From assembly GCA_001017865.1 (NCBI GenBank), contig LATQ01000001.1, positions 150,685 to 156,667 of the forward strand: 5,983 nt of DNA, in the 5' to 3' direction. Shown one piece after another: positions 3,417 to 5,260 of the stretch. The notes beneath the pieces are model-generated. The model had not been told where the DNA came from, made no database searches, and worked only from the letters and a program-made list of their open reading frames with translations. This stretch comes from Rhodococcus sp. IITR03. GTDB taxonomy: Bacteria; Actinomycetota; Actinomycetes; Mycobacteriales; Mycobacteriaceae. Numbering within the stretch: position 1 is the stretch's first letter; every line of letters begins with the position of its first letter. Position numbers and translations under genes: made by a program.

Positions 3417-5260
3417 ACCCACCTACCGCCCTTATCCCGCTCGCCTCGGCCGACACCACCCCGGCCGGTCCCGCCGTAGAACCTGACCGCGCGACAACGA
3501 ATCCGCCCTCTTCACCGGTCCCGGTGACCGGTGCACAATCGGTGGTGCGGTCCCTGGAAGCACTCGATGTCGAGCTCGTCTTCGGCATCCCCGGTGGAGC
3601 GATCCTGCCGGTCTACGATCCGCTGCTCGACTCCCCCCAAGTTCGGCACGTCCTCGTCCGCCACGAACAAGGCGGCGGCCACGCCGCCACCGGCTACGCC
3701 CAGGCCACCGGCAAGGTCGGCGTGTGCATGGCCACCTCCGGGCCCGGCGCAACGAACCTGGTCACCGCCCTGGCCGACGCCCAGATGGATTCGGTGCCCG
3801 TCGTCGCGATCACCGGACAGGTCGGACGTCCCCTCCTCGGCACCGATGCCTTCCAGGAAGTCGACATCTGCGGCATCACCATGCCGATCACCAAGCACAA
3901 CATGCTCGTCACCGACCCGGCCGAGATCCCGAAGGCGCTCGCCGACGCCTTTCACATCGCTTCCACCGGGCGACCCGGCGTGGTGCTGGTCGACATCCCC
4001 AAAGACGTCCTGCAAGCCCGCACCACCTTCACCTGGCCTCCGGAACGCACACTGCCCGGATACCGCGTCGTCACCCGCCCGCACCACAGACCGATCCGGG
4101 CCGCCGCCGACCTGATTGCCGCAGCCGAACGTCCGGTGCTCTACGTCGGTGGCGGAGTCATCAAATCCGATGCAGCACCGCATCTTCGCGAGTTCGTCGA
4201 GCTGACCGGCATCCCCGTCGTGACCACCCTCATGGCGCGCGGGGCGTTCCCCGACAGTCACCGTCTGCATTACGGTATGCCCGGCATGCACGGCACCGTC
4301 GCCGCCGTGGCCGCCCTGCAACGCAGTGACCTGCTCATCGCGCTCGGCGCCCGCTTCGACGACCGGGTCACAGGCGAGCCCACCTCGTTTGCCCCTCAGG
4401 CCAAAGTCATTCACGTCGACATCGACCCCGCCGAGATCGGTAAGAACCGCTTCGTGGACGTCCCGGTCGTCGGAGACTGCAAGAACGTGCTCAACGCCCT
4501 GGTAAATCAGATCCGCATCAACAGCTCAGATGCTGCCGGTCTCGGTCTGGCCGACTGGTACGCTGAACTCGACCGGATACGCGACAATTACCCGCTCGGC
4601 TACACCCGCCCGGCCTCCGGCGCTCTCGCACCCGAACGAGTCATCGAAGCCATCGGGCAGGCCACCGGCCCCGACGCGATCTACGTCGCCGGAGTCGGAC
4701 AACACCAAATGTGGGCCGCACACTTCATCACCTACGACACACCCCGGACCTGGCTCAACTCCGGCGGGCTCGGCACCATGGGCTACGCCGTTCCCGCCGC
4801 CCTCGGCGCCAAACTCGGCGCCCCCGACCGTGAAGTCTGGGCGATAGACGGCGACGGCTGCTTCCAGATGACCAACCAGGAACTGGCTACCGCCGCCATC
4901 GAAGGCGTCCCGATCAAGGTCGCCGTCATTAACAACGGCACACTCGGCATGGTCCGGCAGCTCCAGCACGTCCACTACCAAGGCCGTTACTCGAACGTCG
5001 ATCTCGCCACCCACACCCGACGCATCCCCGACTTCGCCCTGCTTGCCGAAGCACTCGGCTGCGTCGCCCTGCGCTGCGAACGAGAGGACGATCTGGAGAA
5101 AACAATCGCCGCGGCTCGCGCCATCAACGATCGCCCCGTCGTCATTGATTTCGTCGTCGACGACACCGCGCTCGTGTGGCCGATGATTGCAGCCGGCGCC
5201 AGCAACAACCACATCATGCTCGCGGAAGGAATCCGGCCGTTATTCGACGAGTCCGATTAG
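3413..5260 (+). CDS. ilvB: Acetolactate synthase (acetohydroxyacid synthase) large subunit, FAD-type, with Leu at the herbicide-site Trp
   Basis: The enzyme condenses two pyruvates to 2-acetolactate, or pyruvate with 2-oxobutyrate to 2-aceto-2-hydroxybutyrate, the first common step of branched-chain amino acid synthesis. It uses thiamine diphosphate, magnesium and FAD. It has 615 residues, close to the 618 I recall for M. tuberculosis IlvB1. After a Pro/Thr-rich leader (1-37) come VFGIPGGA (56-63), RHEQG with catalytic Glu85, ATSGPGATN, GTDAFQE, RFDDRVTG (314-321, in the FAD-binding middle domain typical of the anabolic type), VGQHQMWAAHF, and the cofactor motif GDG (480-482) to NN (507-508). 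The GTG at 3413 is chosen because it overlaps the previous stop and gives the family length; the frame is open further upstream, but that part is a shadow of the small gene. Unusually, residue 517, equivalent to plant Trp574, is Leu. The protein ends at IRPLFDESD, without the longer tail of homologues, and no ilvN follows; an IS does. Confidence 0.95.
   Translation: MNPPTALIPLASADTTPAGPAVEPDRATTNPPSSPVPVTGAQSVVRSLEALDVELVFGIPGGAILPVYDPLLDSPQVRHVLVRHEQGGGHAATGYAQATGKVGVCMATSGPGATNLVTALADAQMDSVPVVAITGQVGRPLLGTDAFQEVDICGITMPITKHNMLVTDPAEIPKALADAFHIASTGRPGVVLVDIPKDVLQARTTFTWPPERTLPGYRVVTRPHHRPIRAAADLIAAAERPVLYVGGGVIKSDAAPHLREFVELTGIPVVTTLMARGAFPDSHRLHYGMPGMHGTVAAVAALQRSDLLIALGARFDDRVTGEPTSFAPQAKVIHVDIDPAEIGKNRFVDVPVVGDCKNVLNALVNQIRINSSDAAGLGLADWYAELDRIRDNYPLGYTRPASGALAPERVIEAIGQATGPDAIYVAGVGQHQMWAAHFITYDTPRTWLNSGGLGTMGYAVPAALGAKLGAPDREVWAIDGDGCFQMTNQELATAAIEGVPIKVAVINNGTLGMVRQLQHVHYQGRYSNVDLATHTRRIPDFALLAEALGCVALRCEREDDLEKTIAAARAINDRPVVIDFVVDDTALVWPMIAAGASNNHIMLAEGIRPLFDESD
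3513..3533. repeat. Short 8-bp inverted repeat in the synthase leader codons
   Basis: CACCGGTC at 3513-3520 pairs with GACCGGTG at 3526-3533 around a 5-nt loop. It lies about 100 bp after the synthase start, in the Pro-rich leader codons. An 8-bp GC-rich match is plausible by chance in DNA of this composition, so no function is claimed. Confidence 0.35.

Follow-up and report, generated by a model that had tools for sequence, protein, structure and literature searches.

The stretch of DNA analysed here (the window; 5,983 nucleotides of Rhodococcus sp. IITR03, contig LATQ01000001.1) carries the following features, with residues of the synthase numbered on its own protein and matched to Arabidopsis acetohydroxyacid synthase (AHAS).

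3..1894, + strand: AceE-like E1 component; the 5' end lies outside the window and the reading frame is interrupted when compared with the intact homologue (783 aa) at locus L081.
1936..3087, + strand: E2 component of 383 aa with a lipoyl domain and a 2-oxo acid dehydrogenase acyltransferase domain, SucB_Actino-like (profile matches).
3120..3416, + strand: 98-aa protein; its homologues carry the annotation 'DUF3263 domain-containing', and its stop overlaps the ilvB start.
3413..5260, + strand: 615-aa large subunit of acetolactate synthase, Leu type; a paralogue of ilvB (profile matches).
3824..3826, + strand: Gly138, at the Arabidopsis P197 position (alignment); non-distinguishing.
4961..4963, + strand: codon CTC, Leu517, at the Arabidopsis W574 position (alignment to Arabidopsis AHAS).
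4973..4975, + strand: codon CAC, His521, at the Arabidopsis F578 position (alignment).
5192..5194, + strand: Ala594, at the Arabidopsis S653 position (alignment); non-distinguishing.
About 5260..5983, - strand: putative transposase of the NF041680 family, a remnant or part, directly after ilvB.

The ilvB paralogue starts with GTG at 3413, in a GTGA overlap with the stop codon of the gene before it, and the identical start is annotated in the homologues of loci L081 and L082. The protein is a member of NCBIfam PRK07789 (1061 bits, cut-off 881) and scores as a biosynthetic large subunit with TIGR00118 (715 bits, cut-off 538); the ORF is intact and codes for a large subunit of the anabolic type. 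It is under purifying selection, with dN/dS of 0.12 and 0.18 against two plasmid homologues. The corresponding values are 0.18–0.23 for E2 and 0.45–0.60 for the DUF3263-type gene, whose 98-aa product itself has no Pfam or NCBIfam match at E 0.001. Compared with L081, the window E1 has single-base differences near positions 557, 601, 693 and 1130 and a small shift between about 23 and 62. All frame-changing differences fall before position 1131, and the ilvB, E2 and DUF3263-type genes are open. The E1 breaks may be sequencing errors or gene decay; the dN/dS of 0.35 for the first half of this E1 is inflated by out-of-frame codons and was set aside. Among plasmid records, Rhodococcus pyridinivorans pRJH2 (92.4%) and R. 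rhodochrous pNit (91.2%) come closest, each aligning with 88% of the window; both share its gene order, with E1 intact at 783 aa and a divergent gene of the Lrp/AsnC type. No ilvN ORF is annotated or matched in these plasmid homologues. The transposase stretch (5299–5983) matches a plasmid of Rhodococcus sp. DMU1 at 93%.

Reading of the ORF and alignment to Arabidopsis AHAS confirm the original prediction that Leu517 (CTC) stands at the site of the herbicide-contact Trp (Trp574 in Arabidopsis). Direct comparison bears out the claim that CTC lies three changes from TGG, since all three bases differ. The L081 homologue also uses CTC, and Leu is common to the whole clade described below, which rules out an assembly error or a recent point mutation and agrees with the proposal of an evolved state. 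Other Mycobacteriaceae rows of the alignment read GMVRQWQ at this segment; the PDB chains 7u25 and 7stq, the top two by score, themselves align with Leu at position 574. Gly138 and Ala594 had been placed correctly at the P197 and S653 positions, but both are shared with ordinary Trp copies: of 44 Trp-type rows, 31 have Gly at the former, where it is the commonest residue, and 43 have Ala at the latter.

The original prediction had missed a second distinguishing change, His521. At the F578 position His occurs in 51 of 56 Leu rows (Phe being retained in P0038, P0040, P0063, L121 and L088) as against Phe in all 44 Trp rows. Between these 56 and 44 rows, 11 positions are differently fixed at 75% or more on both sides, and two of them are loop positions, W574L (which defines the sets) and F578H. 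We take the W574/F578 loop to cover the AHAS active site. By alignment the window protein retains E144, F206, Q207, K256, M351, H352, D376, R377, V485, D538 and N565 (Arabidopsis numbering), and to E144, D538, N565, F206, Q207, V485, R377 and K256 we assign, in part by assumption, the catalytic Glu, ThDP-site and donor-side roles. Donor-side residues are widely kept across the Leu rows (F206 and K256 in 53 of 56 each, A205 in 52 of 56). The acceptor-site Trp is absent from the window synthase and also from E. coli AHAS I; since the latter does without it, the Trp is not needed for membership of the AHAS family.

Among 121 aligned proteins (the query and the best 120 of 7986 hits, with P0003 being the window's own protein repeated), 47 have Leu and 74 Trp at this position. 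A search of 85 loci for ilvB at E 1e-60 gave 83 matches (none at L083 and L084), of which 80 have Trp and three (L001, L081, L082) Leu. Most homologues do carry Trp, as had been claimed, and Leu as the usual actinobacterial state is ruled out. A GMV-x-QLQ pattern, which covers exact encodings only and also admits Phe codons, matched 19 places in 17 of 401 genomes of the family set; three matches (L096, L097, L099) were dropped as not ilvB, having no match at E 1e-8, and alignment left 16 Leu ilvB loci in 14 family genomes. The order set gave matches in 2 of 298 genomes, one real (G509, L212/L216) and one the non-ilvB L099. In the phylum set 2 of 246 genomes matched (L217, L218), both with distant relatives (36% and 34%) left out of the Leu count, since Phe stands in place of Trp574. 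The reversed pattern, run as a control, had 6 matches in the family set; in the order set it had 4, against 2 of the real pattern. Because the control also matched, each match was judged by alignment and not by counts. The family, order and phylum sets are overlapping samples. Within them Leu is a minority state, almost confined to this group.

In a tree of 56 Leu and 31 Trp rows, the Leu rows form one clade (SH-aLRT 99) that arises by a single change. The clade is found again in a larger tree of 57 Leu and 44 Trp rows (SH-aLRT 100) and keeps a support of 100 after removal of six long-branched rows (51 Leu, 44 Trp); in none of these trees does a Trp row fall inside it. For the Leu side we took the 46 Leu proteins (P0003 excluded) and ten loci, a set that contains a few near-identical pairs; for the Trp side, one Trp protein in five and 16 Trp loci. 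The 13 Trp copies from the Leu genomes themselves and L216 were added later. These are quick trees without bootstrap, built without columns 515–525 and containing several long branches. The Leu clade lies beside housekeeping Trp enzymes of Mycobacteriales, sharing a fork with those of Nocardiaceae, Mycobacteriaceae, Dietzia and Tsukamurella, and includes members down to 58% identity to the window protein.

A second ilvB is found in 13 of the 14 Leu genomes, in every case a Trp copy with adjoining ilvN and ilvC, neither of which occurs at any of the 16 Leu loci of the 14 genomes. The fourteenth (G278), in which the Leu copy alone was detected, is metagenome-assembled, and its Leu contig is that of L001. 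Two Leu copies each are present in G200 and G356, and G509, too, keeps a Trp ilvB adjoining ilvN and ilvC. The Leu copy is a conserved paralogue distinct from the housekeeping ilvB, in line with the paralogue option of the original prediction. It shares with the actinobacterial anabolic IlvB (PRK07789) the family, the domain architecture and the checked catalytic and donor residues, and the window protein shares 69–74% identity with the Trp copies found in those 13 genomes. The Leu type differs from that enzyme in having Leu for Trp574 and mostly His for Phe578, and in being joined to an E1-E2 module instead of adjoining ilvN and ilvC. A literature search of titles and abstract openings found no paper naming this clade or its module.

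We compared 21 distinct Leu loci (L081, L082, L086, L087, L088 and L110–L125; L001 and L124 being one contig, and L086 and L126 one record), some of them cut by contig ends. E1 and E2 are present in 20, the DUF3263-type protein in 16 and Lrp in 14, while ilvN, ilvC and ilvD are absent from all 21. The operon had been called unusual; it is so, and its association of Leu ilvB with E1-E2 is conserved. Nor is Leu common in ilvBN-linked actinobacterial enzymes, none of these 21 loci having ilvN, a linkage that is usual, not strictly defining, for a biosynthetic large subunit. The locus without E1 is L117, which comes from a 13.3-kb contig and has a frame-broken Leu ilvB. At L214 (G509), whose Leu ilvB is 58% identical to that of the window, an E1 (60%) directly follows ilvB and neither E2 nor Lrp is matched, bringing E1 linkage to 21 of 22 Leu loci. 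The synthase gene may stand after E1-E2, divergent from E1-E2 or before E1, and these differing orders and orientations argue for functional selection over frozen ancestry. E1 (at E 1e-150) is found in 116 of 401 family genomes, comprising 14 of 14 Leu genomes versus 102 of 387 others (Fisher p 1.6e-8, kinship ignored).

The alignment of the intact L081 E1 with E. coli AceE spans residues 48–779; against the AceE model TIGR00759 this E1 scores 217.9 bits, below the cut-off of 859.9. Twelve of the 14 Leu genomes encode a full-length AceE that exceeds the cut-off, and the module E1 (783 aa), which is separate from this true AceE, is therefore a paralogue too. In the alignment it retains several His, Tyr, Lys and Glu residues of E. 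coli AceE that we take to be active-site residues; their retention makes a small 2-oxo acid a reasonable candidate substrate.

The wider neighbourhoods are more varied. Across 64 clustered E1 or Leu loci, with neighbour families assigned from tested cluster members, a FAH-type hydrolase occurs in 17, a VOC-type protein in 11, acetoacetate-CoA ligase in 10 and FAD monooxygenases of two clusters in 8 and 6. A Pfam tally of E1 neighbours (142 proteins of 100–700 aa, two per side, from 40 of 41 chosen loci) is led by Lrp (12), E2 (10) and glyoxalase/VOC (7). Neither the clustering nor the tally yields a constant neighbour pointing to an acceptor. At two loci, L083 (8404–15340; R. pseudokoreensis, the same record as L132) and L131 (genome G155), the E1-E2-DUF3263 module lies beside ACC deaminase, lipoyl synthase and RidA. 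Catabolism of methionine and 2-oxobutyrate was considered as a specific pathway and rejected: L083/L132 and L131 have no ilvB match, ACC deaminase, lipoyl synthase and RidA occur in none of the 21 Leu loci, which speaks against it, and the literature search found nothing specific for such a link. The common denominator may be pyruvate or another short 2-oxo acid derived from catabolism, often with an Lrp-type regulator; we put this at about even odds.

The reading we prefer, to which we give an even chance, is that a duplicated AHAS became detached from ilvBNC and joined to a 2-oxo-acid dehydrogenase module, and that it acts without preference for 2-oxobutyrate. A duplicated actinobacterial large subunit would have exchanged Trp574 for Leu once, and in most lines Phe578 for His; this copy would have left the ilvBNC operon and joined an AceE-like E1 paralogue and E2, often together with an Lrp regulator and the small protein. 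Since the catalytic Glu, the ThDP-site and the donor-pyruvate residues are retained, formation of hydroxyethyl-ThDP from pyruvate is still expected. We infer that, with the Trp that selects 2-oxobutyrate as acceptor gone, the reaction would be mostly that of two pyruvates to 2-acetolactate. The Leu enzyme and E1-E2 would then drain catabolic pyruvate, or a mixed pool of pyruvate and 2-oxobutyrate, outside the valine-feedback circuit of ilvBN. Leu and Trp types are separated by only 11 of the compared positions under the 75% criterion, so binding of IlvN and regulation by it in trans could persist, and independence from IlvN would not follow automatically from the absence of a linked ilvN.

A precedent exists for the substrate effect. 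PMC5727371 describes this Trp as a key site for 2-ketobutyrate and reports that AHAS I has Gln there and no 2-ketobutyrate preference, and that a Trp-to-Leu change in AHAS II of E. coli abolished the high preference for 2-ketobutyrate. Our alignment, with Gln in E. coli IlvB and Trp in IlvI at the Trp574 position, agrees with the paper. The original prediction that the Trp affects substrate choice is supported by this one paper, in which loss of the Trp goes with loss of 2-oxobutyrate preference, and by analogy the precedent and the matching alignment lead us to predict an acetolactate-biased enzyme. The Leu type and E. coli AHAS I (IlvB) both lack the Trp, but AHAS I has another substitution (Gln), belongs to another lineage and is linked to its own IlvN. 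The catabolic acetolactate synthases AlsS and BudB make acetolactate from pyruvate without IlvN control, much like the role proposed here; they belong to another subfamily, whereas the window protein scores as the biosynthetic type. Glyoxylate carboligase was rejected as a precedent for Leu, the E. coli enzyme (Gcl) having Ser at this position in an alignment that is distant and may be off.

A tentative alternative, which we consider possible though improbable, is that the Leu enzyme performs a different carboligation, in which pyruvate or another 2-oxo acid would be joined to some third compound, neither pyruvate nor 2-oxobutyrate, that is formed in the E1-E2 pathway or has to be cleared from it. 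That both W574 and F578 of the acceptor loop are among the few changed positions fits this, as does the recurrence of FAH-type hydrolase, VOC protein, acetoacetate-CoA ligase and FAD monooxygenases among the 64 loci. It also draws on four divergent relatives (L110, L113, L112 and L216; 58–65% identical to the window protein), in which Arabidopsis positions 122, 170, 205, 206, 207 and 256 are all replaced, as are position 167 in three (L216 having a gap there) and position 168 in three. All four retain E144, R377, D538, Leu574 and the E1 neighbour, and genome G356 has both a copy with this eroded donor side (L110) and a copy whose site is complete (L111). Judged by these residues the four proteins may make no acetolactate. 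Against a new carboligation for the clade as a whole, the donor-side residues are retained in the window copy and in at least 52 of 56 Leu rows, and the absence of a constant neighbour pointing to an acceptor also weighs against it. We likewise think it unlikely, and speculative, that the Leu clade is evolving towards a new ThDP carboligase paired with a dedicated 2-oxo-acid dehydrogenase; the four proteins with the eroded donor side would then use a new donor/acceptor pair or form a mixed dimer with the housekeeping Trp-type subunit.

The synthase is the least stable part of the module and may be accessory to it. Its gene is frame-broken in L115, L117 and L118, and 102 of the 116 E1 genomes have no Leu-ilvB matched by the pattern. 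Short ilvB-matching fragments adjoin E1 in L133, L134 and L149, and possibly in L090 (49% over 196 residues), which suggests repeated loss of the synthase from the module. Such broken and fragmentary copies beside E1, and the many E1 genomes without a pattern match, are what would be seen if the Leu copy were no more than a redundant AHAS isozyme carried along in a mobile catabolic cluster, where relaxed constraint lets Leu persist. We regard this as decidedly unlikely: the dN/dS of 0.12–0.18, a Leu clade free of Trp rows and an E1 linkage that persists down to 58–60% identity all count against it.

Leu at plant position 574 is the classic target-site change conferring herbicide resistance, as the titles of PMC11625580 and PMC8136277 indicate, and by analogy the Leu enzyme is likely to be insensitive to sulfonylureas and imidazolinones as a by-product. 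The residue change is identical to that of the plant W574L mutants; those are mutants of the housekeeping enzyme, whereas here a three-base difference is fixed in an old paralogue. The resistance reading is secondary to the keto-acid reading. A resistance determinant against a natural inhibitor, also raised in the original prediction, found no backing, since the annotated neighbours looked at, among them those of L081 and L082, include no gene named for inhibitor synthesis and Gly138 and Ala594 are ordinary for the group. That the Leu copy, with the E1 paralogue, serves as a tolerant backup for enzymes poisoned by a herbicide or a natural analogue of pyruvate or of a branched-chain compound would suit the plant precedent and the location of several loci on plasmids of soil Rhodococcus, but is very unlikely, given that a change placed at the root of a clade whose members diverge to 58% identity with the window protein should long predate synthetic herbicides, that none of the annotated neighbours looked at is named for inhibitor synthesis and that the recurring E1-E2 and Lrp partners are left unexplained.

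The Leu-type synthase is a natural and old version of the best-known herbicide-resistance change, and its context points to keto-acid catabolism, not to herbicides. Leu at this position in environmental acetolactate synthase sequences need not, then, signal herbicide selection. The Trp and Leu paralogues of the same genomes form a panel for the control that this residue has over the ratio of acetolactate to acetohydroxybutyrate, and the clade links an enzyme of branched-chain amino-acid synthesis to an AceE-like E1 that is widespread in the family (116 of 401 genomes).
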